From Deltaproteobacteria bacterium (lineage in GTDB: Bacteria; Desulfobacterota; Desulfomonilia; UBA1062), in the NCBI GenBank assembly GCA_029547185.1, contig JAKPPU010000125.1, positions 1-64,000 on the forward strand: a DNA stretch of 64,000 nt, in the 5' to 3' direction. The notes below the pieces were generated by a model. It ran no database searches and had not been told where the DNA came from. It saw only the letters and a list, made by a program, of their open reading frames with translations. A program made the translations under genes and the position numbers. Shown in pieces: positions 3,433 to 57,735 of this stretch (within the stretch, counting starts at the first letter, position 1; every line of letters begins with the position of its first letter).

Positions 3433-6400
3433 ATGAGAGACATCAGGACGAGAATTTATGAGTGGATCATCTGGGTGCTCGTATGGGTGTTCGGGTATGC
3501 GCCGCTGTGCTCGGCCCTCACGTTCAGCCCGCTCGACAGGGCACAGGTCATGGATTCCGCGAGGTCCGTTACCCCTGAAAAGTATCCCAATGCGGAGGTG
3601 GTGCAGCTCGATTCGAGGCAGTGGATCACCTACAAGACCGACGGCACGTACAGGCAGTGGTACGAGACGTACGCGAAGGTCATGACCGAAAAGGGAAGGC
3701 GCAGGTACAAGTCGGTCACCTCGTCGTACACCATCCCCTACAACGTCACCGAGTTCAAGCTCGTGGAGGTGATCCGCCCCGACGGATCGAGCCTGCAGGT
3801 CGACATCGAAAAGAACAGCAGCGACCTGATCGAGCAGTCCCAGATGGACGCGAACATCTACGACCCCAACAACAGGATCCTCCGCGTGAGCATTCCCGAG
3901 GTGAATGTCGGTGACACAGTGCATTTCATCGTATGTGACGAATTCAAGAAGACGCGCATGCCCGGCACCTTCAGCGATTACGTTCTCTTCGAGAGCACGG
4001 ACCCGATAAAACGGGCAGAATACACCGTGGTGGCGCCCAAGGAAAAGCCGCTGCAGAGCATGGCCCTCAAGGCCCAGATCCCGGGGACTGTCACGCACAC
4101 GAAAGAAGCCGTAAACGGCGAGATCGTCTACACGTGGGTTGCCAGAGACGTTCCCCAGACATACGAAGAACCCCAGATGCCGCCGCTCTATACCCAGGAG
4201 CAGCGGCTCCTCGTGAGCACGATACCCGACTGGGAGAGCGTGTCGAAGTGGTACTGGAGCCTCTGCAAGCCCAAGATCGAGAGCACGACGCCCGAGATGG
4301 AAAAGACCGTGAAGGACCTCGTGGCGGGCATCTCGAACCCGCAGAGAAAGATCGAGACGATCTTTTACTGGGTGTCCCAGGAGATCCGGTACATGGGCAT
4401 CACGGTCGAGAAAGACGCGCCCGGGTACGAGCCGCATCCCGTGAAAATGACCTTCGAGCGCAGGGCAGGCATCTGTCGGGACAAGGCCGCGCTCCTCGTC
4501 TCCATGCTGCGGCTTGCCGGCTTCGAGGCCTATCCCGTGCTCATCATGAACGGCCCGAAAAAGGATCCCGAAGTGCCCCAGCCGTTCTTCAACCATGCGA
4601 TCTCCTGCGTGCGCATGCCGGACGGGAAATACCTGCTCATGGATGCAACCGACGAGAATACGAAGGAGCTCTTCCCGGCATACCTGAACGACCAGAGCTA
4701 TCTCGTAGCCTCTCCCCACGGAGAGACGCTCCTCACGAGCCCCATCATCCCGGCAGAGCAGAACATGATGCACATCGAGACCACCGGGACCCTCGGGAAG
4801 CAGGGTGACCTCCACGCGAGCGTCAGGATGTTCTTCGAGGGGATCAACGATAACGTCTACCGCAGGTTCTTCTCGCAGCTCACCCCTGAAGAGCGGCGGC
4901 AGTACTTCGAGAAGATCGTCATGAGAACCGCGCCGGGAGGCATCCTCACCTCGTTCGATCTCCTGCCGGCCGACATGCTCGACACCTCCCAGAGGATCGA
5001 GGCCCGCTTCGGGTTCGAGGTCAAGGAGTGGGCGATTCCGGGCAAGGATACGGTCATTCTTCCCGTGGTGCACTTCAGCAAGAGCGTGGGAATGTCCAAC
5101 ATCCTCATCGGCAAGATGGGCCTCAAAAAACGGAAATACCCTTACGTCACCGACGTGGCCTGCGGAATCCAGGAATCGTTCAGGCTCGATGTGGGCGATT
5201 CTCTGGGCAAGGTCCTGAGCCTGCCGGAATCCACCCGGATCGACAACAAGGGCGCCACCTGGAAGTCGTCGATGTCGGTCAGGGGAGGGGGCTCTCTCAT
5301 CTTCGAGCAGACTTTCAAGATGAAGATCCCCGAGTATACGCCCGAGGAATACGGGGAGCTCCAGGAGACCATCAGGACGATCGAGGCGGACAACAAGAAG
5401 ATGCCCGTCTTCTCGACCGCGAGATCTCCCCTGCCCGTGTCCGAGCAGCAGTGGTACACCCCGTTCCAGTCGGATGCGCTGGTTATCGACGAGGTCCACG
5501 ATTACGACGTGATCGACAGGACGAGCTGGACGGAAACGAAGCACGTGAAGATGAAGGTGCTCACCTATGCGGGCAAGAAGAACTACAGCGATATCCGGAT
5601 CGCCTTCAACCCGAGCTGGGAAAAGGTCGAGCTGAAGAAGGCCGTGGTGACCTCGCCAGGTGGCATCAGGTCCACCATCGATGAAAAGGAAGTCAACATC
5701 ATGGACGCCGACTGGGTCGGCGACGCGCACCGCTACCCCGCATCGAAGATCATGGTCGTGAGCCTTCCCGGTGTGGAGGAGGGGAGCACGATCGAATACA
5801 CCCTCGTGAGGAAAAAGACCGGCAGGTCCTTCTTCTCTCTCCACGGCGAATCATGCTTCCTCGACAACAGGAGGATAGAGAGCCGCTCCCGTGAAGACCA
5901 GTCCCTCGTGACCATGGACGGGGTGTTCCGCTACCCCGAGCCCATCGAGAAGAAGACCGTCCGCATCCGGGTGCCCGAGGGCATGAAGCTCAACATTTCG
6001 GATTTCAGCGATCACGGCAAGCCTGTCGACCTTACGGGCAGGGGCATTCAGGTCAGGACAATGAACGAGAGGAACAAACGGGTCTATGAATTCAGCGCCG
6101 CCATGGTCCCGCCGGCGCGCCAGGAAGACTACATGCCTCCCTGGTACTACTTCAATCCCGTCCTGTTCGCCTCGTCCGGAAGCTGGAAGGACTATGCCCA
6201 CGAGGTGCAGACTCACCTGACCCGGGCGGCATCGAGCTGCGAAAAGGCTGCGAAGCTGACTGCCGGGCTCGTGAAGGACACGGACGAGAGCACCGCGAAG
6301 ATCAGGCTGATCCGCGATTTCGTCGCGAGAAATATCAAGGACATATTCAATGCCTGGCACGAGCTGCCATTGAGCTGCATCACGCCTGCCGACCGGGTCC

Positions 6401-43363: not shown

Positions 43364-45184
43364 ATGAGCACATTCACACCATACGATGAAACAACCATTC
43401 CCGGCATTTTCAGGAACCAGGTCGAAAAATCCCGCAACGTCGTCTTTCTCAAAATCCGTGACGAGAGCAGGAAATGGAAAGAGTACTCGTACGGGGATAT
43501 CAGCGGACACGTCGACGCACTGGCTTCTTACTTTCTGAAAAAAGGCATCGAGTTTAAGGACAAGATCGCCATCTATTCCAACAACCGGCCCGAATGGGTC
43601 GTGTCGGACATCGCCGCCCTGATTATCGGAGCGGCCGATGTTACCGTATACCCGACGAACTCCGGCCCGGAAGCGGAATACATCCTCAACGATTCCGGCT
43701 CGAAGATCTGCATGTGCGCCGGAAAGTTCCAGGTCGACAACCTCTTGAAGGAGAGAGAGCGCCTGGGTAATCTGCAGGAGATCATCGTCTTCGACGATCT
43801 CGAATACACCGACCCGATGGTCGTCAAGTTTTCGAAGGCCCTCGAGATCGGCAGGGAAAACCTCGACCTCGAAGAGATCGACAGGCGCCTGAGGAAGATC
43901 GACCCGGCAGAGACGGCAACCCTGATCTACACTTCGGGCACGACGGGAAATCCCAAAGGGGCCATGCTGACCCACACCAACCTGGTGTCAAACGTGAAGC
44001 AGTTCGTCGAACATCACCCGTTCCCCAGGAGAGGGACGTGCGTATCCCTCCTCCCCCTGTCCCATGCGCTGGAGCGCACGGTGGGCTACAATTCCATGAT
44101 GCACGAAGGGGGCACCATCGCCTATACGAAAGGGGCCGATACCCTCCTCGAGGACCTCAAGGACATCAGGCCCACGCTCGCCGTCTATGTGCCTCGCGTG
44201 CTCGAGAAGATCTACGAGGGGGTCATGAGCCAGGTGGGAAACGCTCCGGCGGGCAAGAAGGCCATGTTCAACGCGGCCATGAGCGTGGGCAGAAAGTCTC
44301 TGCCCTACATTCTTTCCAACAGGCCGGTACCCTTCCCCCTGGGACAGGTCTACAGCCTCTTCGACAAGCTCATCTATTCGAAGCTTCGCAAGGCCCTGGG
44401 ACTCGACCACATGCTGACCATCGGGGTCGGCGGCGCGCCACTCTCGAACGATATCAACGCGTTCTTCCAGATCATTGGCGTTGAAATCCACGTGGGCTAC
44501 GGGCTCACCGAGACATCGCCGATGACGCACGTGCACACGTTCAAGTATCTCAGGCCGATCAAGCTCGGCACCTGCGGCCCCGCGCTCCCGCGCACGGAAT
44601 GCAAGATCGCGGAAGACGGCGAGATCATGGTCCGCGGACCGCAGATCATGAAGGGATACTACAAAAAGCCCGAGGACACGAAGACGGTTCTTACGGATGA
44701 AGGGTGGTTTTATACCGGCGACATCGGCACGATCGACCAAGACGGGTATCTGACGATAACGGACCGCAAGAAAGACATCCTGATCACCGCGGGCGGCAAA
44801 AATGTTTCGCCACAGGTCATCGAGGTGGCGTTTGCGCTCCACCCGCTCATCGAGCAGATCGCCATCATAGGCGACCAGAAGAAATACCTCGTGGCCCTCA
44901 TCGTGCCCTGCTTCCCCGAGTTGATCAAGTGGGCCGAATCGAAGAACATAACCGAGGCCGACCCGAAGAAGCTCATCGCCCACCCGGAGGTGGTCAGGAA
45001 GTACACCGAGACGGTCGAGGAGCTGAACAGACCGCTGGGCCGCGTCGAGCAGATCAAGCGCTTCACCCTCATCGACCGCGCCTTCAGCCAGGAGACCGGC
45101 GAGCTCACTCCCACTCTCAAGGTGAAGCGGAAGGTCGTTATGGAACACTACAGCGCCGTCATCGAAGAGATGTACAGAGAGTAA
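43364..45184 (+). CDS. Long-chain acyl-CoA synthetase (AMP-forming)
   Basis: Adenylate-forming CoA ligase of the FadD15/long-chain group, 606 residues. Seen: P-loop TLIYTSGTTGNPKGAMLTH, the GYGLTETSPMTH motif, GWFYTGDIGTIDQDGYLTITDRKKD hinge and the C-terminal catalytic-lysine region LTPTLKVKRKVV. The ATG at 43364 follows GGAGGGG by five bases; the frame is open to 43310 without a site. It activates a fatty or aromatic acid to its CoA ester, the likely entry step for the dehydratase/SDR cluster before it. Confidence 0.93.
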   Translation: MSTFTPYDETTIPGIFRNQVEKSRNVVFLKIRDESRKWKEYSYGDISGHVDALASYFLKKGIEFKDKIAIYSNNRPEWVVSDIAALIIGAADVTVYPTNSGPEAEYILNDSGSKICMCAGKFQVDNLLKERERLGNLQEIIVFDDLEYTDPMVVKFSKALEIGRENLDLEEIDRRLRKIDPAETATLIYTSGTTGNPKGAMLTHTNLVSNVKQFVEHHPFPRRGTCVSLLPLSHALERTVGYNSMMHEGGTIAYTKGADTLLEDLKDIRPTLAVYVPRVLEKIYEGVMSQVGNAPAGKKAMFNAAMSVGRKSLPYILSNRPVPFPLGQVYSLFDKLIYSKLRKALGLDHMLTIGVGGAPLSNDINAFFQIIGVEIHVGYGLTETSPMTHVHTFKYLRPIKLGTCGPALPRTECKIAEDGEIMVRGPQIMKGYYKKPEDTKTVLTDEGWFYTGDIGTIDQDGYLTITDRKKDILITAGGKNVSPQVIEVAFALHPLIEQIAIIGDQKKYLVALIVPCFPELIKWAESKNITEADPKKLIAHPEVVRKYTETVEELNRPLGRVEQIKRFTLIDRAFSQETGELTPTLKVKRKVVMEHYSAVIEEMYRE

Positions 45185-48850: not shown

Positions 48851-49909
48851 CTACCTGTCTGCAAATCCTGCCAGGAGCATGCCCAGCATCCGGCCCACGC
48901 GCTTGAGGATATCGGCGGTGAGATCGTCGAGAGCCTTCAGGTGGGGGCGGTGGGAATCCTCGAAGATGACCCGTGCCGCATTTGCGGCGCACTTCTTGGT
49001 CTGGGCGGCAACGTCTTCCTCGTGATCCTTGTGCACGTCGCCGTACGCCTCGACGAGGCCTGTGCCGAACCGGTCGAGCATGAAGGAGAAGACCGGCTTC
49101 ACCAGCCTTTCAGCTTCACGGACATACCCGTCCAGCTCCGCATCGAGGTCCCCCCCGATTGTCCGGCCTTGCCTTGCTCCATCCATCAATGAGTCTTTGA
49201 ACGGCCGGCACTCCTCGCGGAACCGGCGCTCCACGTAGAGCTCGTAACCGGTGTGGATCGCGGAAGCGGTTCGGAAGAGCTCGTGGGAGGACAGGATTTT
49301 CCGTATCACGTACCCGTCGGGCGCCGCCTTGACGTGAAAGGGGCTGCCGAGGTCCGCCAGGTAGTGCGTACAGCGGGAGAGCATGCGCCAGCCCCAGTAG
49401 TCGTTGCCCTCCTGAAAGGCCTTCACGGCCATCTGTCTGTGGTGGCGGAAGGACTCGGGTGCCATTCCGATCCTGTAGCCCAGGATCCTGAAGCGCATGT
49501 GCCTCCACCCGTGGGAGCCTCCCATGATCTTCTGCCGCTTGTGGAGGGAAAGGTCGCAGTCGAGGTTCAGATCGGGCTCGGTGGTGTAGACGACGAGCAC
49601 CTTCCAGGGATCGGCTGTCCTGTCCAAGGGAGGATCGGGCGAGAAGTCGCCGTTGCGGTGTCCATAGTCGAAGGCGAGGAGGGGATCGATCTTCCTGGCC
49701 TCCCTGTAGTCCTCCTTGTACAGGTCGATGTGACCGGGTCCGACAGGCCACTGCGTGTCATCGATGAAGGGATTCGGCTTCACGGGAACGGGCGGCAGGC
49801 CCATAATCCGGTCGAATGCCTGGACAGCGAAATAGGTGATGTACTCGTGCGAGAACCACGGCCCCCATGCCGCATGCATCCGCGGGTCATCGTGCAGATA
49901 GTATTCCAA
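48851..49909 (-). CDS. Zinc-dependent phospholipase C / P1-nuclease-like protein
   Basis: 352 residues, all helical. The motif HYLADLGSPFHVK near the middle is the metal-binding helix of the zinc PLC/S1-P1 nuclease fold, and further His/Asp residues (FSHEYITYFAVQAFD near the start; GHRNGDFSPD; HRQMAVKAF) could supply the other ligands. The secreted enzymes of this family begin with a Trp/His after a cleaved signal peptide; here no signal peptide is visible, so it is probably cytoplasmic and its substrate is unknown. No clear ribosome site. It is convergent with the Lpp-like gene. Confidence 0.7.
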   Translation of the reverse strand: MEYYLHDDPRMHAAWGPWFSHEYITYFAVQAFDRIMGLPPVPVKPNPFIDDTQWPVGPGHIDLYKEDYREARKIDPLLAFDYGHRNGDFSPDPPLDRTADPWKVLVVYTTEPDLNLDCDLSLHKRQKIMGGSHGWRHMRFRILGYRIGMAPESFRHHRQMAVKAFQEGNDYWGWRMLSRCTHYLADLGSPFHVKAAPDGYVIRKILSSHELFRTASAIHTGYELYVERRFREECRPFKDSLMDGARQGRTIGGDLDAELDGYVREAERLVKPVFSFMLDRFGTGLVEAYGDVHKDHEEDVAAQTKKCAANAARVIFEDSHRPHLKALDDLTADILKRVGRMLGMLLAGFADR

Positions 49910-49958
49910 GTTTACAGTCCCTTTACTGTTTTTGTTCCAGCACGCTCAAGGCTCCTGG

Positions 49959-49978
49959 ATTCCCGCCTTCGTGGGAAT
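49959..49978 (-). repeat. ATTCCC-type palindromic repeat, copy 2
   Basis: ATTCCC-N8-GGGAAT flanked by CCTGG, the counterpart of 41392-41411. It lies beyond the end of structured repeat copy B in the same relative position as copy 1 does to copy A. Confidence 0.8.
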
Positions 49979-50019
49979 GACAGATGCTTCCCTTTAACCG
50001 AACGGGCTACAACGATGAA

Positions 50020-50246
50020 AGCGTGCCCAGGGGAGCCGGAGGGTTTCCTGGATGAACCGTCAAGCGCCTTTTGCTAAAGCAGCCCGACCGAAGGCTTAAG
50101 GCCTCTTGGACCCGTACTGTTTGAGCCTCCCAAAGGGAGGCGAGTTTACGGGGCCGGCCTTAAGATGCAGGTCGTGGATGCTTCAAAAGGCGGTTTCGGT
50201 GAAGGAAGGAAACCCTCCGGCTCCCCCTCCACCGAACCGTTTCTTC
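50020..50246 (-). repeat. Structured dispersed repeat, copy B (inverted relative to copy A)
   Basis: Core 50031-50225 is 195 bp, the same length as copy A, and bounded by a 19-bp perfect inverted repeat (GGGAGCCGGAGGGTTTCCT / AGGAAACCCTCCGGCTCCC). The apical hairpin is GCCTCCC-N3-GGGAGGC (50125-50141). Compared with copy A several changes fall on both sides of a stem and keep the pair: A-T to C-G in the outer arm, A-T to G-C and A-T to C-G in the apical hairpin, and A-T to G-C in the GACCCCGTA stem. It starts right after the stop of the RuBisCO-like gene, in that gene's orientation, as copy A does after the SDR gene. Confidence 0.85.
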
Positions 50247-50259
50247 TCTTCATACTTCC

Positions 50260-51564
50260 TTAAATCTTGAACTCGGTCTTTTTCTTCCAGGTGCCGAGCG
50301 CTATCCCGAGGGCCTCGTGCTCCTGCGAGTACTGCTCGATCGGGATGCCCTTCAAGACTGCGTCGATAGCCTCTCTGAAGGCCTTCGTGCCGGCGGTCGG
50401 GCCCTGCGGATGCGCGTGGATGCCGCCGCCGGAGCCGATCATGATGTCCCGCCCGAGTGCGTTGACGATGTCGGGCACGTTCGCCGGGGTGATGCCGCCG
50501 GACGGCATGGGCAATGTGGGCTTCAGGCTGCCGAACGGATAGGTCAGGTTGCGGCAGGTCGCCATGAAGCGGTCGTGCATGTAGATGCCCTTGCCGCCCA
50601 GGGAGAAGGGCAGCACGATAGAGTCCGCCCCGCACAGCCGCGCGAACTTTCCGAAGACCACGGGCGATGCGATGCCCTGCACAGGGGACATGAAGTACAC
50701 GCCTGCCACGTCCATGTGGGCCAGGATGGGCACGTTGATGTAGGGATCTTCGGCCAGGGCCCGCATGGCCTCGGGGCCCACGGCGAGGTAGTTCACCATC
50801 ATGGCGTTCGCGCCGGCGTCGATGCAGCGCTTCGCCAGGTCGAACATGCGCGGCAGCCGGTCGGTGACGTTCACGGTATAGAGCGTGTGCTCGCCGGTCT
50901 CTTCATACACCTGCTTCTCGATCGCCATGTAGGTTTTGACGCGCTCTACCGCATCGTTGTAGCGCATGTTGGCGATGAGCTCGTCGTCCTTGATCACGTC
51001 GCAGCCGCCCATGGCCACGTCCCGGAAGAGCTTTGCACCGACCTCGAGGGGATAGCCGCTGCAGGGCTTGATCATGTTGTTGAGCAGGGGCCTGCCCTTC
51101 TCGATGCCCAGCGCCTTGTACCACCCGTCCACGCCGAACTTGGGGCCCTGGTACTGGTCGAGGGTGGCCCTGGGCATGCGCAGGTCGAGGAGCTTGAAGT
51201 TCGGCACCAGCGAGATGTTGCCGATGGTGGCGGTGAGCAGCATCGGGAGCTGGTCCTCCACGTTGGCGGAGGGGAAGGCGATCTGGATGATGTACTGCCT
51301 CTCCTTGACGTCCTCAGGGATCCCGTACTCATAGGATGGGATCTCGAATACGCCGATGACCTTGGCGACGTGCTTGGCGCGCACCTCGGGCGTCTCTCCG
51401 GGTACGGGCACCCAGGTGCCGGTCGTCTGCTCGATGGCCAGGATCTGGCCCATGAGCGCCATGTCCATGTTCTTGTCTGCCTTGACCAGGTACGTGGCGA
51501 CCACGTGGTTCTCCATGTCGATGCCCTCGGGCAGCGCTATGGGCTTGTCTGCAAAAGCGTCCAT
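50260..51564 (-). CDS. RuBisCO-like protein (form IV-type large-subunit homologue)
   Basis: 434 residues with the full RuBisCO large-chain fold. Kept relative to the true enzyme: E45 and T50 (AIEQTTGTW), N116 (TIGNIS), K166 (MIKPC), the metal/carbamate triad K192-D194-E195 (GGCDVIKDDE), H283, and phosphate-binding S355-GG and G379-GGG. Lost: second lysine of KPK is C168; Arg and His of the HRxxH region are M284 and A287; the HIH histidine is V317. It should therefore bind metal and a phosphorylated ketose-type ligand and form an enolate, but not carboxylate ribulose bisphosphate. AGGAGG is eight bases before ATG 51564. Last gene of a five-gene operon. Confidence 0.9.
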   Translation of the reverse strand: MDAFADKPIALPEGIDMENHVVATYLVKADKNMDMALMGQILAIEQTTGTWVPVPGETPEVRAKHVAKVIGVFEIPSYEYGIPEDVKERQYIIQIAFPSANVEDQLPMLLTATIGNISLVPNFKLLDLRMPRATLDQYQGPKFGVDGWYKALGIEKGRPLLNNMIKPCSGYPLEVGAKLFRDVAMGGCDVIKDDELIANMRYNDAVERVKTYMAIEKQVYEETGEHTLYTVNVTDRLPRMFDLAKRCIDAGANAMMVNYLAVGPEAMRALAEDPYINVPILAHMDVAGVYFMSPVQGIASPVVFGKFARLCGADSIVLPFSLGGKGIYMHDRFMATCRNLTYPFGSLKPTLPMPSGGITPANVPDIVNALGRDIMIGSGGGIHAHPQGPTAGTKAFREAIDAVLKGIPIEQYSQEHEALGIALGTWKKKTEFKI

Positions 51565-51596
51565 TTCCGTTCCTCCTTGCTCAAGGATTTGATTTT

Positions 51597-53009
51597 TTAT
51601 GCGTCCTTCGGGATCAGGGAAAGGAGATACTCCCATACCGAAAGGGTTTTGTTCAACGCTTCATCGTCGTGCTGCATGCAGGAGTACATGCGGGTTCCCG
51701 CCAGGGAGCAGATGCCGTGGGCCATGGTGACGATCTGGTAGTCGTCGGCTACCTGCTTGCGGGTGAGGATCTCCATGAAGGCTTCCGGCGCGCTCAGGTC
51801 GAGGGAAAAGAACGACGTGGTCACGTAGTGCATGATGGGTCCATAGTTGTAGACGAAGAACCCGAGGTCGGGCCTCGTCGAGAAGAGGTCGTTGAGCGCA
51901 TTCGTCAGCCTATCCGCATACCGCGTGGCCTTCCCGACGGCGTCGTGCTCTTCCATGAGCTTCAGGGCGTGGTAGCACGCTGCCGTGGAGATGGGGTTGG
52001 CCGCCAGGGTGCCTCCGATGTAGATCTTCTCGCCCAGGCCGCCGTGGCATACGGCCATCACGTCCTTCCTGCCGGCCACCGCGCCTGCCGAAGGATAGCC
52101 GTGGGCGATGATCTTTCCGAGCACAGTGAGGTCGGGCATGATGCCCAGGTATTTCTGGGCGCCGCCCATGTCGAGCCTGAAGCCTGTCACCACCTCGTCG
52201 AAGATGAGGAGCGAGCCGTAGGCGTCGCAGAGCTCGCGCATCCGTCTGTTCCAGTCGGGATGAACCGGGTGGGTGCCCGACTCGCCTCCGATGGGCTCCA
52301 CTATGGCGCCGGCCACTCCTCCCTTGTCCTTATTGTCCTCGAAGGCCTTCTCGAGCGCGTCGAAGTCGTTGGGCGGGACGTCCACGATATGGGCGTAGGA
52401 CTCGCTCGTGATGCCCTTCGAGTTGAGCGGCCCGGTGCCCGGGATGTGCAGGGCGTACACCATCTGGTCCGACCACCCGTGGTAGCTCCCTCCTATCTTG
52501 ATGATCTTCTGCTTCCCGGTGAACGCCCGCGCGATGCGGATCGCGGCCATATCGGCCTCGGTCCCGGACTGGAGGAACCTCACCATCTCCACCGACGGCA
52601 TGTGCCTGATGATCTCTTCTGCCGCGAGGAGCTCGTACTCGGATGTGAGCCCGGTGGCAGGGCCTTTGTCCCGGATGATTTCGATGATCTTCTCGTCGAG
52701 CGGTGTGAAGGCGTGGCCTAAGATGATGGGCGCGCCGGACATGAGGTAGTCGATATACTCGTTTCCGTCGACGTCCCACATCCGGTATCCCTTCCCCCTG
52801 TCCATGGCAAGGGGAAAGGGCTTGCTCTGGCTCAGGTTATGCTCCACGCCTCCAGGGATGAGCCCCTTGGCCCTCTCGAATATCTCGAGCGACTTCCTGT
52901 TTCGCTCCGTGAAGAGCGTGCGCTCCTTCTCGAGCCTGTCTGCCGGCACGGGACGGACCGGCTTCGAGAGGATCTCCTGTCTCCGTGATATGATCTCCTG
53001 ATATTCCAC
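51597..53009 (-). CDS. Class III aminotransferase, glutamate-1-semialdehyde aminomutase-like
   Basis: PLP enzyme of 470 residues. Landmarks: GGVEHNLSQSKPFPLAMDRGKGYRM at the entry (shortened pattern GGV..N), LQSGTEADMAAIRIARAFTGK, GSYHGWSD, the DEVVTGFR motif with the PLP Asp, and VLGKIIAHGYPSAGAVAGR with the Schiff-base Lys. The GSA-aminomutase-like branch includes transaminases and mutases acting on amino-keto or amino-sugar-like substrates. The start is GTG 53009 with GGGGAGAG upstream. It lies 32 bp before the RuBisCO-like gene and 22 bp after the kinase gene. It is not the tetrapyrrole gene hemL, judging from context. Confidence 0.9.
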   Translation of the reverse strand: MEYQEIISRRQEILSKPVRPVPADRLEKERTLFTERNRKSLEIFERAKGLIPGGVEHNLSQSKPFPLAMDRGKGYRMWDVDGNEYIDYLMSGAPIILGHAFTPLDEKIIEIIRDKGPATGLTSEYELLAAEEIIRHMPSVEMVRFLQSGTEADMAAIRIARAFTGKQKIIKIGGSYHGWSDQMVYALHIPGTGPLNSKGITSESYAHIVDVPPNDFDALEKAFEDNKDKGGVAGAIVEPIGGESGTHPVHPDWNRRMRELCDAYGSLLIFDEVVTGFRLDMGGAQKYLGIMPDLTVLGKIIAHGYPSAGAVAGRKDVMAVCHGGLGEKIYIGGTLAANPISTAACYHALKLMEEHDAVGKATRYADRLTNALNDLFSTRPDLGFFVYNYGPIMHYVTTSFFSLDLSAPEAFMEILTRKQVADDYQIVTMAHGICSLAGTRMYSCMQHDDEALNKTLSVWEYLLSLIPKDA

Positions 53010-53031
53010 TTCGCTCTCTCCCCTTTCTTTC

Positions 53032-54648
53032 TCAGTTTCCCTGCGCGGGAAGCGCGCACGTGTTCGAGCTTCTCCTGTTCATCCGGCAGCAGATCTTCCT
53101 GTGGATCCTGTAGAGGTTCAGGAACTCGGCATATATCTCGTCGTAGACCTTCCTGTTCGTGGGGTCGGGGCGGTATTCAGCCTTGATCCGGATGCATTTC
53201 GGGATGTCCTCGACGGTGATGTGCCGCAGGGCGATCGCGGCCAGGAACGCAGCGCCGCGGACATTGGCGTAGATGGGTCCCTCGACCTGCCGGATGGGCC
53301 TGTCGAGGACGTCGGCCATGATCTGCGACCAGACGTCGGAATTGGCGCCGCCGCCGATGAAGTTCAGATATTCGAACCTCCTGCCCATGAATTTCTCCAC
53401 CGGGCCGAGGAGCCATCTCTGGTTGTAGGCCACGCCCTCGAACACGGCGCGGGCAATGTCCTCACGGGTGTTCTCGAGCGACAGGTTGAAGATCGACGAC
53501 CGGATGTGACAGTCCTCGACGGGCGTGCGCTCGCCGTAGAGCCACGGGGTGAAGATCACGTCGTTCGAGCCTGCCGGCACCCTCGAGACGATCGCGTCGA
53601 GGAACTTGAAGATGTCCGGGGCGTTCTCCTCCTGCATGAGCTCGTCCTTGTGGTAGAGGACGTTGTCGCGGAGCCATGTGAGGCATTTTCCGGCGCACTC
53701 CTGCTCGTCGAGGATCATGTACCTGCCCGGGATCGGGCTCGGGAACGACCCCAAGGAGTGCAGCAGGTCGGTCTTCTTGAAGGGAACGTGGGCGGATATC
53801 CACGAAGAGGTGCCGATGTAGAGGTGGCCCTCGTAGTCCCTCACGGCACCCGAGCCCACGCACGCGGAAGGCACGTCGGGCGTGCCGCCGATCACCGGCG
53901 TGTCGGGCGGGAGACCGAGCTCTGCCGCCACGTCCTTCTTCACCGGGCCGAGCACGTCGATCGCCCGGATGAGGTCCGGGAGCTTGTCCCTCTCGATCCC
54001 GGCCATCTTCAGGAGCTTGGGGTGGTAGGCCACGAGGAACGGGTCGCGGTTGTCCGTGACCCAGTGGAGCAGGATCGAGTCGAACGTGGCCGCGAACCTG
54101 CCGGTGAGCATCAAGTTGATGTAGTCCTTGGGCTCGAGGAACTTGTACGTCTTCCTGTAGATGTCCGGGCGCTCCTTTTTCAGCCAGAGGATGTGGGCGA
54201 TGGGGTCCTTGCCCGACGATGCGGGTGCCCCGCCGGTGAATTTAAGCCAGTTCATGAGCATGAGCGGAGGATACCCCTCTATCTTGACAGGACCCTTGAG
54301 CGCCTCCTTGAGGGCCTCGCTTCCCCGGCAGTCCATCCAGATGATGGCGTTCATGAGGTTCCTGCCCTCCCTGTCCACCGGGACCGTTCCCGACCACTGG
54401 GTGGTCACGCTCACGGCCGCGATGTCGGAAGCCTTCACGATCCCCTTTTCAAGCACCTTTTTCGCCGTGGACATGATGGTCTTCCACCAGACTGCCGGGT
54501 CCTGCTCGGCTCCGCCGCCCGGAAGGAGGATGAGCGGGGTCGGCTCGAACTCACTGCATGCCACCTCACCGCACACCGATACGAGAGCGGTTTTCGGGCC
54601 CGACGTGCCCAGGTCGATGGACAGGATGTACTTGTCGCTCGTGCTCAT
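53032..54648 (-). CDS. FGGY-family carbohydrate kinase
   Basis: ATP-dependent sugar or polyol kinase, 538 residues, of the xylulokinase/gluconokinase/glycerol kinase superfamily. Seen: LSIDLGTSGPKTALV, the substrate-side TTQWSGTVPVDREGR, IIWMDCRG, GGTPDVPSACVGSGA (catalytic Asp), YIGTSSWISAHVPF and the C-terminal GGGANSDVWSQIMADVLDRP. The ATG at 54648 overlaps the stop of the epimerase-like gene by 4 bases and has GAGGTGA upstream. It would supply the phosphorylated ketose that the RuBisCO-like protein is expected to bind. The sugar is not deducible. Confidence 0.93.
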   Translation of the reverse strand: MSTSDKYILSIDLGTSGPKTALVSVCGEVACSEFEPTPLILLPGGGAEQDPAVWWKTIMSTAKKVLEKGIVKASDIAAVSVTTQWSGTVPVDREGRNLMNAIIWMDCRGSEALKEALKGPVKIEGYPPLMLMNWLKFTGGAPASSGKDPIAHILWLKKERPDIYRKTYKFLEPKDYINLMLTGRFAATFDSILLHWVTDNRDPFLVAYHPKLLKMAGIERDKLPDLIRAIDVLGPVKKDVAAELGLPPDTPVIGGTPDVPSACVGSGAVRDYEGHLYIGTSSWISAHVPFKKTDLLHSLGSFPSPIPGRYMILDEQECAGKCLTWLRDNVLYHKDELMQEENAPDIFKFLDAIVSRVPAGSNDVIFTPWLYGERTPVEDCHIRSSIFNLSLENTREDIARAVFEGVAYNQRWLLGPVEKFMGRRFEYLNFIGGGANSDVWSQIMADVLDRPIRQVEGPIYANVRGAAFLAAIALRHITVEDIPKCIRIKAEYRPDPTNRKVYDEIYAEFLNLYRIHRKICCRMNRRSSNTCALPAQGN

Positions 54649-55637
54649 TTCGTCACCTCGATGAATCCGTTTTCCGTATACCATGTGTAGGCGTCGTTTA
54701 CCATTTCGCTCAATGTCCGGATGCGGTAGCCGAGCTCACGAACGGCCTTCGACGAGTCGTAGTATGCCTTCACTGACATGAAGCGCGCCTGGCCCGGATT
54801 CATGTCCGGGGCCTTGCCCGTGAACGTCGAGAGGAGCTCCATCACGTATCCGTACGCCGTGAGCATCCATCCGGGCATGTCGAGCCAGGGTGCTGATTTC
54901 CCGAACTTCGACGCGATCAGCCTGCAGAGCTCCCGGTAGGTCGCGTTCACGCCGGCGCAGATGTATCCCTGTCCAGGTACCCCTTTCGTGAGGGCTGCCA
55001 CGTGGGCGCGGGCCACCTCGGTGACGTGGCCGAAGGCAATCCCTCCGCAGGGGACCGCCGGGACCTTGCCGTCGCGGAGATCGAAGAACAGGCGGCCGAA
55101 CTGGAGCGTGAAGTCGTAGGGCCCGACCATGGAGCCGGGATAGATGACGACGACCTCGAGGCCCTTGTCCGCATAGGAGAGGACCCGCCTCTGCCCCTCG
55201 TGCTTCGTGTCCCCGTAGTTGTAACCTGTCCCGGCATAGTTGTAATGCGGCCAGGACTCGTCGGCCAGCCCGCCGGGATTACAGCCCAGGGCATCGATGG
55301 TGCTCGTGTGGACCATCCTCTTCACCCCGTGTTTGAGGCAGGCTTCGGCCACGTTGGCAGGGCCTTCGACATTGATCTTCCGCTGCCTCTCGAAGCGCCT
55401 CTTCCAGAACGACGTGTCGCCGGCGCAGTGGATCACCGCATCCGTGCCTGCCACCGCAGAGTCGACATCGGCCGGGTTCGTCACGTCGCCGAAGAGGATC
55501 TCTTCGCACACATCCTCTATGTACCGCGTCTCCGACCCGGGAAGGCCGAAGGCCCGGACATCATACCCGGCGCGGGCGAGCTCGTGCACGACGTTCGTCC
55601 CCAGGAAGCCGGTCGCACCGGTAACGAGGCATTTCAT
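54645..55637 (-). CDS. NAD(P)-dependent epimerase/dehydratase-family (extended SDR) protein
   Basis: 330 residues from ATG 55637: CLVTGATGFLGTNVV nucleotide motif, the long FGDVTNPADVDSAVAGTDAVIH segment, catalytic YNYGDTKHEGQR (Y-x3-K) and PGSMVGPYDF. It resembles dihydroflavonol-reductase/3-beta-HSD-like and hopanoid-sugar-epimerase-like members, which reduce or oxidise a hydroxyl group or epimerise sugars. The stop of the preceding SDR and this ATG share a base (TAATG), so translation is coupled. Confidence 0.9.
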   Translation of the reverse strand: MKCLVTGATGFLGTNVVHELARAGYDVRAFGLPGSETRYIEDVCEEILFGDVTNPADVDSAVAGTDAVIHCAGDTSFWKRRFERQRKINVEGPANVAEACLKHGVKRMVHTSTIDALGCNPGGLADESWPHYNYAGTGYNYGDTKHEGQRRVLSYADKGLEVVVIYPGSMVGPYDFTLQFGRLFFDLRDGKVPAVPCGGIAFGHVTEVARAHVAALTKGVPGQGYICAGVNATYRELCRLIASKFGKSAPWLDMPGWMLTAYGYVMELLSTFTGKAPDMNPGQARFMSVKAYYDSSKAVRELGYRIRTLSEMVNDAYTWYTENGFIEVTK

Positions 55638-56464
55638 TATTGACGGCCCCTCTTTTTCCTGACGGATGCGATCTGCCTGTCCATCACCCATTCCACCAGG
55701 GAAGGGACAAACCTCTTGGCAGTGCATGATATCCTGGCTTCGAGCCCCGGAACGATGAGAAACCGGTTCGTTTGCATCCCGCTGATCAGGGCCGACGCCA
55801 CCTGCTCTGCGGTCAGGACCCTGACGGTCTTCGAGATCTGCTTCGTTTCTTCGGGCTTTGTCATGTTCTCTACCGCGTATCCGGGGGTGTCGGTATCGGG
55901 AGGACAGAGCACCTGCACCTTGATGCCGCAGGATTTCAGCTCGCTCCGGAGCGCCTCGGAGAAGCCGATGATCCCGAACTTCGAGGCGCAGTAATCGGTA
56001 AACCCGAAGACGCCGACGAGCCCGGCCACGGAGGACGTGTTCACGATGATGCCCCCTTTCTCCTTCATAAAAGGGGTCAAAGCGACGGTCGTGTAGATGC
56101 TTCCCATGAGGTTGACCTGTATCGTCTCTTCGAACTGGTCGATCGCGATGTCTTCAAAACGGCCGGGGTAGGCGCGGCCGGCGCAGTTGATGAGGATGTC
56201 AGGCACCCCGAAGCCAGCCACTGTCCGCTGCATGGCGTCCTTCACAGCCTGCCGGCAGGATACGTCCATAGAGACCGACAGCAGGCGCTGGCTCTCGTTC
56301 TTCCGGCATGCCGAGATATCGCCGAGGGCCTTCGCAAGGCGTTTTTCATCACGGGCAAAGACGGCGACATGGGCGCCGAGGCGAGCCAGCCCTTTCGCCG
56401 CCGCAAGACCGATCCCGCTGGATCCGCCCACGCAGTATACGATCTTGTCCTGAAAAGCTCCCAT
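55637..56464 (-). CDS. SDR-family oxidoreductase close to 3-ketodihydrosphingosine reductase
   Basis: 276 residues; first gene of the RuBisCO-like operon. SDR motifs: VGGSSGIGLAAAKGLA, NCAGRAYPGRFED, NTSSVAG, YCASKFG. The segment CPPDTDTPGYAVENMTKPEE is strikingly like the PPDTDTPG...EN.TKP.ET signature of eukaryotic KDSR. No serine palmitoyltransferase or ceramide synthase is nearby, so sphingolipid work is possible but unsupported; oxidation of a polyol in the same operon is an alternative. Hydrophobic C-terminus (FVPSLVEWVMDRQ) may associate with the membrane. Confidence 0.88.
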   Translation of the reverse strand: MGAFQDKIVYCVGGSSGIGLAAAKGLARLGAHVAVFARDEKRLAKALGDISACRKNESQRLLSVSMDVSCRQAVKDAMQRTVAGFGVPDILINCAGRAYPGRFEDIAIDQFEETIQVNLMGSIYTTVALTPFMKEKGGIIVNTSSVAGLVGVFGFTDYCASKFGIIGFSEALRSELKSCGIKVQVLCPPDTDTPGYAVENMTKPEETKQISKTVRVLTAEQVASALISGMQTNRFLIVPGLEARISCTAKRFVPSLVEWVMDRQIASVRKKRGRQ

Positions 56465-56647
56465 TCCATACCCCCGATATGCTCGGGCTCACTGCCCCTG
56501 GAAAATCTCCATTATGCTACAATAATCGAAGCGACCCGGGGAATGCTAGTGCCGAACCGGTCAAAAAGATGAGAAATCCGGCCAAAAGCCATGGGCCGAC
56601 CTCTTCATGCGCCTGTCCGGACCTGCCCGTACGGCGCGTCCGCACGT

Positions 56648-56684
56648 TTGACTTGCCGGAGAAAACATTATAAAATTTGCCGGA
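56648..56684 (+). promoter_or_regulatory. araC-type gene promoter with two direct repeats (probable autoregulatory sites)
   Basis: TTGACT (56648-56653) and TAAAAT (56671-56676) with a 17-bp spacer. Two identical TTGCCGGA octamers (56653-56660 and 56677-56684), 24 bp apart and in direct orientation, bracket the -10 box. Direct repeats at about two helical turns are the usual layout of AraC-family binding sites. Confidence 0.7.
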
Positions 56685-56727
56685 CGTAACGCTTGGATGA
56701 TCGTGCAATCTTGAAAAGGGGGACAGC

Positions 56728-57735
56728 GTGGCAAAGGGTCGGATCTCTTCGGACAGCGCCAAGTGGCTGGTGAGGCAAGTCCTCTCCATGGACGTGCCGC
56801 TCGACCGCATCCTCAGAGGCACGGGGCTTTCCAGGACATGGCTCCGCGACGAGCACGCCCTCATTACGCCCGAGCAGTACCTCACCATCGTGGGCAATGC
56901 ACTCGATGAAACGCACGATCCCGCGCTCGGCCTCAATATCGGGCCGCTCCAGTACCTCGGCGACCTGGGGTTCCTCGGATATGCGATCATCTCGAGCCCG
57001 AGCCTGAGAGAGGCGAGCCAGACCGCTTTGCAGTTCTGGGAGCTCAACGGCTCCCTCGTGACGCTGTCCTATCGGGAAGACGATGAGCACAGCATATGGG
57101 ACATCTCTCCCGCCTTTCCCATGAAAGACCTCAGGCTGTGGATCTATGCGGTGGAAGAGCTGCTCACGACCTTCAGTACGACCGCGGGCTTTCTCTCGAA
57201 CCGTGCCTTCCGCTATGCCGATATCACCCTGTCGTATCCTGACCCGGGGCACGGCCGTCTCTATCGGGAGCTCTTTTCATGCCCGGTATTTTTCGGCAGA
57301 GAGGCCGACCGCTTCAGGGTCGCGGCAAAATACTCCGATATGCCCACCTTCACCGGGCATCCCCGGATGGCCCACATCTGCCAGCAGCAGTGCCAGGAGC
57401 TGCAGGCCAGGCTGAGGGATGACGACGACCTTACCGCCTCCATCCGGGAGATCATCATTGCCTCGATGGGGCAGATCCCCCATCTGCCGGACGTGGCGAA
57501 GAAGCTCGCCATGAGCTCCCGCACACTGCGCCGGCGCCTGCAGGAACGGAACACTACATACCAGCGCATCCTCGACGAGGTCAGACAGGAGCTCGCCAAG
57601 GAATACGTCGCAGGGACGAACCTGAGCGTCGATCAGATCGCGGGCAGGGTAGGGTTCAGCGAGGCGGCGACGTTCCGGAAGGCCTTCAAGAAGTGGACAG
57701 GCATGAACATCGGGGAGTTCAAGCGCAGGGAGTAA
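56728..57735 (+). CDS. AraC-family transcriptional regulator
   Basis: 335 residues, GTG start after GGGGG. The N-terminal ~220 residues match the arabinose-binding/OruR-ArgR-like ligand domain (DPALGLNIGPLQYLGDLGFLGYAI; VFFGREADRFRV), and the C-terminal ~95 residues are two helix-turn-helix units (LPDVAKKLAMSSRTLRRRLQ and VDQIAGRVGFSEAATFRKAFKKWTGM). It is divergent from the RuBisCO-like operon with 263 bp between, so it is the likely ligand-dependent regulator of that operon and, through the TTGCCGGA repeats, of itself. Confidence 0.93.
   Translation: MAKGRISSDSAKWLVRQVLSMDVPLDRILRGTGLSRTWLRDEHALITPEQYLTIVGNALDETHDPALGLNIGPLQYLGDLGFLGYAIISSPSLREASQTALQFWELNGSLVTLSYREDDEHSIWDISPAFPMKDLRLWIYAVEELLTTFSTTAGFLSNRAFRYADITLSYPDPGHGRLYRELFSCPVFFGREADRFRVAAKYSDMPTFTGHPRMAHICQQQCQELQARLRDDDDLTASIREIIIASMGQIPHLPDVAKKLAMSSRTLRRRLQERNTTYQRILDEVRQELAKEYVAGTNLSVDQIAGRVGFSEAATFRKAFKKWTGMNIGEFKRRE

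Follow-up and report, generated by a model that had tools for sequence, protein, structure and literature searches.

What does a RuBisCO-like protein (RLP) do when it is encoded together with an FGGY kinase and an aminotransferase? The question arises from the window, a 64,000-nucleotide stretch of DNA from a Deltaproteobacteria bacterium. A preliminary description reported five tightly coupled minus-strand genes opposite an AraC regulator, and the ORF coordinates, overlaps and gaps were reproduced (Table 1). Pfam and NCBIfam profiles agree with the protein families named there. All five genes of the proposed operon are present; a sixth, encoding a phosphoesterase, had been overlooked. We infer co-transcription of the operon from gene spacing and conservation. 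No Rfam match to an RNA regulator was found between positions 44000 and 62000, and scans for promoters and terminators yielded about as many hits as expected from shuffled sequence.

Table 1. Coordinates of the operon genes and the divergent regulator in the window
Feature	Coordinates	Strand	Remarks
Classical SDR	55637-56464	-	ketosphinganine-reductase-like per preliminary description; genus-restricted accessory
Extended SDR (HpnA / 3beta-HSD-like)	54645-55637	-	likely start 55637, TAATG overlap; genus-restricted accessory
FGGY kinase	53032-54648	-	likely start 54648, ATGA overlap; subfamily also pairs with sphingosine-1-phosphate (S1P) lyase
Class III PLP aminotransferase	51597-53009	-	22-nt gap; GSA-aminomutase-like, below HemL cut-off
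RLP, 434 aa	50260-51564	-	32-nt gap; PF00016 E 5.3e-40
Phosphoesterase, Zn phospholipase C / P1-nuclease fold	48851-49909	-	fold match; no Pfam/NCBIfam match
Divergent AraC regulator	56728-57735	+	N-terminal Arabinose_bd domain

In trees, the RLP belongs to a clade (support 99/96) that is separate from MtnW (100/100), OiaX, DeepYkr and Photo RLPs, and that lies on the MtnW/DeepYkr side, away from OiaX. The RLP with structure 3qfw, which we take to be R. palustris RLP1, forms a separate 100/100 pair with an Ensifer RLP on a long branch, and the window RLP is not grouped with it. The closest named family is MtnW; the RLP scores below the cut-offs of both MtnW models (289.6 vs 513.6 bits for TIGR03332 and 330.1 vs 409 bits for NF007095) and of the OiaX model (NF042437; 179.6 vs 700). 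The tree placement among form IV clades proposed in the preliminary description puts the RLP outside every clade of known function, including any whose standard operon has these same genes. A known methionine-salvage or apionate operon is ruled out by model cut-offs, trees and partners.

The active site is nearly that of RuBisCO in one half and altered in the other. The metal/carbamate triad (K192, D194 and E195) and K166 of the window RLP are present as first described, and M284 and V317 are confirmed in place of Arg/His in the second phosphate site. Across 56 RLP sequences of the clade, E60, T65, N123, K175, K201, D203, E204, H294, K334, S379, G380, G381 and G403 (RuBisCO numbering) are invariant, and W66 and G404 are present in nearly all; the CO2-handling residues and the C1-phosphate site are kept in all 56. 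Fixed changes are K177C (55/56), R295M (56/56) and A296D (56/56). Specifically, the window RLP has C168, M284 and V317 at the lower-half positions K177, R295 and H327, and thus has the CO2- and C1-phosphate-handling residues of a bona fide RuBisCO without these three. The equivalents of E60, N123 and K334, on which the preliminary description was silent, matter for the mechanism. At the position of N123, Asn is found in 56/56 RLPs and Lys in 5/5 MtnW-clade references; the latter residue, presumably Lys98 of the Geobacillus enzyme, was reportedly identified as catalytic by Imker in 2007. Because one phosphate site is kept and the other is lost, the ligand is probably monophosphorylated, which supports the ketose-type monophosphate suggested earlier. 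The retained C1-phosphate, metal/carbamate and C3-enolising residues, together with the changes at R295, K177 and H327, would fit a ketose-1-phosphate.

A search of genome neighbourhoods for the same five genes found that the kinase, aminotransferase and RLP recur, while both SDRs occur mainly in the window's genus and lie upstream of the kinase only there. Since the SDRs are lineage-specific, SDR oxidation, part of the pathway first proposed, is unsupported as a core step. SDRx lies downstream as well in locus L031. The conserved core in Thermodesulfobacteriota and Spirochaetota is kinase, aminotransferase and RLP. Asgard archaea have the RLP-aminotransferase pair, often with no adjacent kinase, and Actinomycetota and some others have a saccharopine-dehydrogenase-like enzyme in the aminotransferase's place. 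In 45/60 homologous loci from several phyla (with two identical pairs among the loci), an FGGY kinase precedes the RLP on the same strand by at most 4.5 kb, and over 43 loci the distances of kinase and RLP are correlated at r=0.94 (shared phylogeny ignored); the pairing therefore exceeds chance. Comparison of partners bears out the earlier claim that they are unlike those of described RLP pathways.

The best clue to the substrate comes from other kinases of this subfamily, which stand beside a genuine S1P lyase in at least seven other loci. Specifically, kinases 41-58% identical to the window's adjoin the lyase in L112/L034, L113, L114, L127, L131, L132, L154 and, partially, L155, and the two genes are a few genes apart in L121. 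The L034 lyase matches the Symbiobacterium S1P lyase structure 3mad with 630 bits. The kinase is present in 4/4 cases where close lyase orthologs (at least 61% identical, or the query itself) have upstream sequence. In a midpoint-rooted tree, the lyase-linked kinases fall within a 100/99 clade that holds the window's kinase, and the RLP-linked Actinomycetota kinases fall outside it. Across 35 lyase loci only 8 have the kinase nearby, the lyase stands beside an RLP in one locus only, and it is absent from the window's own genome and from most genomes with a clade RLP. The kinase's best NCBIfam match is XylB, below the cut-off (271 vs 380.25 bits). An autoinducer-2 kinase was rejected (LsrK 151.6 vs 528).

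The aminotransferase scores 302.5 against the HemL cut-off of 527.3, its PLP lysine K299 is invariant in a 22-sequence alignment, and a second GSA-aminomutase-type gene (39% identical) lies elsewhere in the window genome. Its nearest solved relatives are GSA aminomutases; 6hbs, which we take to be FumI, is a weaker match. FumI is a class III aminotransferase that takes the C2 amine off a sphingoid analogue. The aminotransferase is found in 31/60 loci, the saccharopine-dehydrogenase-like enzyme in 12/60 and both in 0/60, with four changes on the tree, an exclusivity that is not significant on independent pairs; at the genome level, four aminotransferase genomes also hold a saccharopine-dehydrogenase paralog (47-53%). 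That the two never share a locus is consistent with their being interchangeable. A suspected in-frame TGA in saccharopine-dehydrogenase homologs was discarded: for the homologs read at full length (L108 and L109) the alignment has no internal stop, and the reported stop lies past its end. Amination after the RLP, as first proposed, is disfavoured; deamination before the RLP better fits the S1P-lyase-linked kinases.

For the sixth gene, a sequence-only structure search was empty and a fold search succeeded. The AF2 model (pLDDT 80.5) aligns by VIA-align to PC-PLC with Z 13.3 (rmsd ~3.3 over ~210 residues; best unrelated row Z 4.3), which identifies the Zn phospholipase C / P1 nuclease fold. The zinc-ligand pattern H182xxxD186x5H192...H219xxxE223 is invariant; both the fold and the HxxxD...H...HxxxE pattern are those of this superfamily. 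The PLC-fold gene follows the RLP in 21/55 fetched homologous loci, and the enzyme is present in 23/60.

We tentatively propose, with somewhat less than even confidence and from sequence comparison, that the operon encodes an undescribed, oxygen-independent and probably catabolic route for a sphingoid-base-like 2-amino-1,3-diol. The FGGY kinase would phosphorylate the C1 hydroxyl, and the aminotransferase, or the saccharopine-dehydrogenase-like enzyme in other lineages, would remove the C2 amine to give P-O-CH2-C(=O)-CH(OH)-R. This product is a ketose-1-phosphate whose lower half is an alkyl chain or some other unphosphorylated group; the RLP would turn it into a 2,3-enediolate and most likely move the carbonyl, a 1,3-isomerisation like that of DeepYkr RLPs. 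Breakdown may then be completed by a FucA-like aldolase, by a phosphatase (PLC-fold or, in one lineage, MtnX-like) or by both. The bacterial S1P lyase pathway (e.g. Symbiobacterium) has the same kinase subfamily adjacent and shares the proposed 2-amino-3-hydroxy-1-phosphate intermediate; here the aminotransferase or its counterpart and the RLP replace the lyase. The lipid-type neighbours, namely the PLC-fold enzyme and an SCP2 protein (L045/L050/L083), count for the sphingoid-like route, and a FucA/ribulose-1-P-aldolase-like gene in 15/60 loci fits a ketose-1-phosphate intermediate. Against it stand the scarcity of the lyase, the GSA-aminomutase likeness of the aminotransferase, MFS neighbours that are weakly sugar-acid-transporter-like, Asgard loci often without the kinase, and the invariant Asp285, which lies close to the lower-half site and is no obvious partner for an alkyl chain.

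DeepYkr RLPs of R. rubrum and R. palustris are 5-methylthioribulose-1-P 1,3-isomerases (PMC5893883). Like them, the clade is expected to use a ketose-1-phosphate, keeps E60 and N123 and would be oxygen-independent; unlike them, it forms a separate clade, has E204 and K334 where DeepYkr (3qfw) has His and Arg, and has an FGGY kinase and aminotransferase in place of MtnP/MtnA/cupin partners. The same precedent (PMC5893883) would serve ordinary deoxy- or amino-sugar catabolism, in which the xylulokinase-like kinase supplies a ketose phosphate, a 1,3-carbonyl shift by the RLP follows, the FucA-like aldolase yields DHAP and an aldehyde, and the aminotransferase or saccharopine-dehydrogenase-like enzyme deals with the aldehyde or amine. 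The XylB match, the aldolase gene and distant relatives (L079/L080, 40-41%) near two FGGY kinases and an ABC sugar transporter favour this somewhat unlikely route; however, the kinase is far below the XylB cut-off, and the kinase-S1P lyase pairing, PLC-fold phosphatase and SCP2 neighbour would go unexplained.

A less likely module resembles OiaK/OiaX: after phosphorylation of a sugar or beta-amino acid, the aminotransferase or a dehydrogenase would produce the 3-oxo acid that the RLP decarboxylates. The residues that handle the carboxylate in RuBisCO (E60, N123 and K334) persist here as in DUF1537-linked RLPs, a kinase adjoins the RLP in both, a relative (L078, 43%) has a DUF1537 kinase next after it and a class III aminotransferase beyond that, and beta-transaminases are among the aminotransferase's PDB matches. 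However, the OiaX score and the separate clades argue otherwise, the kinase here is FGGY, and R295, kept in DUF1537-linked RLPs, is Met.

It is improbable that the RLP is a true carboxylase of a monophosphate (P-O-CH2-CO-CHOH-R + CO2 + H2O -> 3-phosphoglycerate + the fatty acid R-COOH), which would make it an anaerobes' RuBisCO for a deaminated sphingoid phosphate; isomerisation is more likely. The kept residues map to the upper half of ribulose bisphosphate and the lost ones to the lower half; relative to RuBisCO forms I-III, the RLP has the Cys, Met and Val replacements and no C5-phosphate site. Similarly improbable is a methionine-salvage-type enolase with a 2,3-diketo-1-phosphate as its substrate and an MtnX-like phosphatase as the next enzyme. 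MtnW (DK-MTP-1-P enolase, form IV-YkrW) is the most similar to the window RLP and shares one phosphate site and the triad, and in L081 an MtnX-like HAD phosphatase separates the kinase from the RLP; however, both cut-offs are missed, the clade and the kinase and aminotransferase partners differ, Lys98 is Asn, E60 and K334 are retained whereas MtnW lacks them, and the known MtnW route requires O2 downstream. Very improbable is conversion of 5-deoxyribulose-1-P (from MtnA) to 1-deoxyxylulose-5-P, a 5'-deoxyadenosine counterpart of the MTA-isoprenoid shunt: the chemistry is analogous to the DeepYkr reaction and MtnA-family genes occur in 25/25 genomes, but the kinase and aminotransferase are both unexplained, the window genome's copy is ~22 kb away in an unrelated cluster, and, to our knowledge, Asgard archaea do not make isoprenoids via DXP.

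An RLP of unknown function has been noted in related Actinobacteria (PMC7325909). The literature consulted, mostly papers outside subscription, held no account of the operon, the kinase-S1P lyase pairing or an RLP in sphingolipid metabolism. Known RLP functions cover only a few clades. The present clade extends across Thermodesulfobacteriota, Spirochaetota, Actinomycetota and Asgard archaea, with uncultured anaerobes among its hosts, and this span, the near-whole RuBisCO active site and the fixed substitutions make it relevant to the diversification of RuBisCO chemistry. Should the proposed substrate prove true, anaerobic sediments and digesters would harbour an S1P-lyase-independent route for long-chain bases, and a bacterial kinase family for long-chain bases would be named.

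Gene calls on the window bear out the preliminary description, with all five minus-strand genes and the divergent AraC gene in place and spaced as claimed. Pfam and NCBIfam uphold its family assignments (two SDRs, FGGY kinase, GSA-aminomutase-like PLP aminotransferase and RuBisCO-like protein, RLP), and sequence alignment confirms the active-site residues that it named. A sixth gene follows the RLP gene. Its product has no match in Pfam, NCBIfam or PDB sequence searches; its AlphaFold2 model (pLDDT 80.5) resembles Bacillus cereus phospholipase C (PLC) and P1-type nucleases in fold comparison (Z 10-13.3; top unrelated row 4.3). The zinc-ligand spacing H182xxxD186x5H192...H219xxxE223 is unchanged in 20 sequences compared. 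Because inspection by eye shows no evident signal peptide, the protein is a putative cytoplasmic phosphoesterase. About 350 nt separate the RLP and PLC-fold genes in the window, compared with roughly 50-110 nt in most relatives.

Coordinates of features in the window and in two other loci
Feature	Location	Positions	Strand	Remarks
PLC-fold gene	window	48851-49909	-	
RLP-to-PLC gap	window	49910-50259		repeat-like stretch CATTCCCACGAAGGCGGGAATCCAG
RLP gene	window	50260-51564	-	434 aa
Sulfatase gene	L031	13150-14940		near RLP or S1P-lyase locus
MtnA-like gene	L110 (G000:C99:68001-80000)	5324-6391		about 22 kb from operon

The RLP occurs in 16 of 395 sampled genomes of the phylum (E<=1e-60; relatives down to about 41% identity counted) and, within the window's family, in 8 of 24. 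Searching 84,980 species genomes yields 55 RLP loci, in Thermodesulfobacteriota, Spirochaetota, Actinomycetota (Geothermincolaceae), Lokiarchaeota, Helarchaeota and Heimdallarchaeota, with an additional match (44%) on one Eubacterium contig. Two maximum-likelihood trees place the RLP clade (support 99/96) apart from MtnW, DeepYkr, OiaX/DUF1537-linked, Photo and form I sequences. RLPs of 40-49% identity (L075-L080) are not part of it and lie amid other catabolic genes. Specifically, L078 (G279) has a 43%-identical RLP, then an overlapping DUF1537 kinase, a class III aminotransferase and a TRAP substrate-binding gene, so that the kinase type differs though the RLP is related; L079 and L080 (40-41%) have two tandem FGGY kinases, a VOC protein and a MalK-type ABC sugar transporter; the RLPs of L076 and L077 (46-47%) adjoin PEP-hydrolase-like TIM barrels, a ThDP enzyme, a cupin and a TRAP binding protein.

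Sixty loci reach far enough upstream for comparison, two pairs of them identical. In 45 of the 60 a same-strand FGGY kinase lies directly upstream of the RLP; the aminotransferase is present at 31, the PLC-fold gene at 23, a FucA-like class II aldolase at 15 and a saccharopine-dehydrogenase-like gene at 12. The last never accompanies the aminotransferase (0/60) and holds its place in Actinomycetota, L061, L046 and L082, the latter nested among aminotransferase loci on the RLP tree. The swap takes four changes on that tree, and an independent-pairs test is not significant. Genome-wide, the saccharopine-dehydrogenase-like gene (>=46% identity) is found in 10 of 11 genomes without an aminotransferase ortholog vs 4 of 14 with one, a raw count that ignores phylogeny. 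Its solved relatives include carboxyspermidine dehydrogenase, an enzyme handling C-N bonds. The two SDRs precede the kinase in no genus but the window's. In L081, whose RLP is 69% identical to the window's, an MtnX-like HAD phosphatase lies between kinase and RLP. L035, L050 and L083 carry an FGGY kinase of another type, in opposite orientation, downstream of RLP-PLC, preceded in L050 and L083 by a GlpD-like dehydrogenase. Sulfatase genes also lie near RLP or S1P-lyase loci in L082 and L121 (with L031, from a Spirochaetes genome and G083). The MtnA-like gene of L110 adjoins gatA, gatB and an NAPRTase-like gene, then a radical-SAM sulfatase-maturase-like gene and a sulfatase.

E60, T65, N123, K175, K201, D203, E204, H294, K334, S379, G380, G381 and G403 (RuBisCO positions) are unchanged in all 56 clade RLPs. 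G404 is retained in 55 and W66 in 49 (Phe in the other 7), while K177 is replaced by Cys in 55, and R295 by Met and A296 by Asp in all 56; the H327 position is V317 in the window RLP. By the roles of these residues in RuBisCO, the RLP is predicted to retain the upper half of the RuBP site and to have lost the lower-half phosphate site, which supports a ketose-1-phosphate-type ligand. In contrast, E60 and K334 are missing from MtnW, whose N123 position is Lys, and DeepYkr has His at E204; the residue pattern thus argues against MtnW enolase chemistry. Among isomerase, carboxylase, decarboxylase and enolase, isomerase would be the leading candidate, since the trees put the clade on the DeepYkr/MtnW side, although their root is uncertain and they contain long branches.

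The kinase subfamily links the module by gene neighbourhood to sphingosine-1-phosphate (S1P) lyase, a clue to the substrate. Locus L034 encodes a second FGGY kinase (58% identity to the window's), whose gene lies directly upstream of one for a protein scoring 630 bits against Symbiobacterium S1P lyase. A lyase search with flanks places the same kinase subfamily next to S1P lyase in at least seven further loci (41-58% identity), including 4 of 4 close lyase orthologs with upstream sequence; the majority of S1P-lyase loci are without the kinase, and the window's genome itself has no lyase. Lyase-linked and RLP-linked kinases form one clade (100/99; midpoint-rooted tree), with the RLP-linked Actinomycetota kinases outside. 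Given this pairing and shared clade, the simplest reading is that the kinase subfamily would phosphorylate a 2-amino-1,3-diol at its C1 hydroxyl, and that the product would go either to S1P lyase or to the aminotransferase and RLP. C2 deamination would give P-O-CH2-CO-CHOH-R, the motif enolised by RuBisCO-type enzymes. Two further features agree with this reading: the phospholipase-type fold and, in L045, L050 and L083, an SCP2 lipid-carrier gene adjoining a different class III aminotransferase beside the RLP. The window aminotransferase weakly matches FumI in a structure-database search; FumI, the fumonisin aminopentol aminotransferase, belongs to class III and deaminates a sphingoid analogue at C2. 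A sugar as substrate, instead of a sphingoid-like diol, is a serious rival, and we propose the sphingoid-like pathway with low to moderate confidence. The RLP module itself is real and conserved, and is apparently new to the literature.
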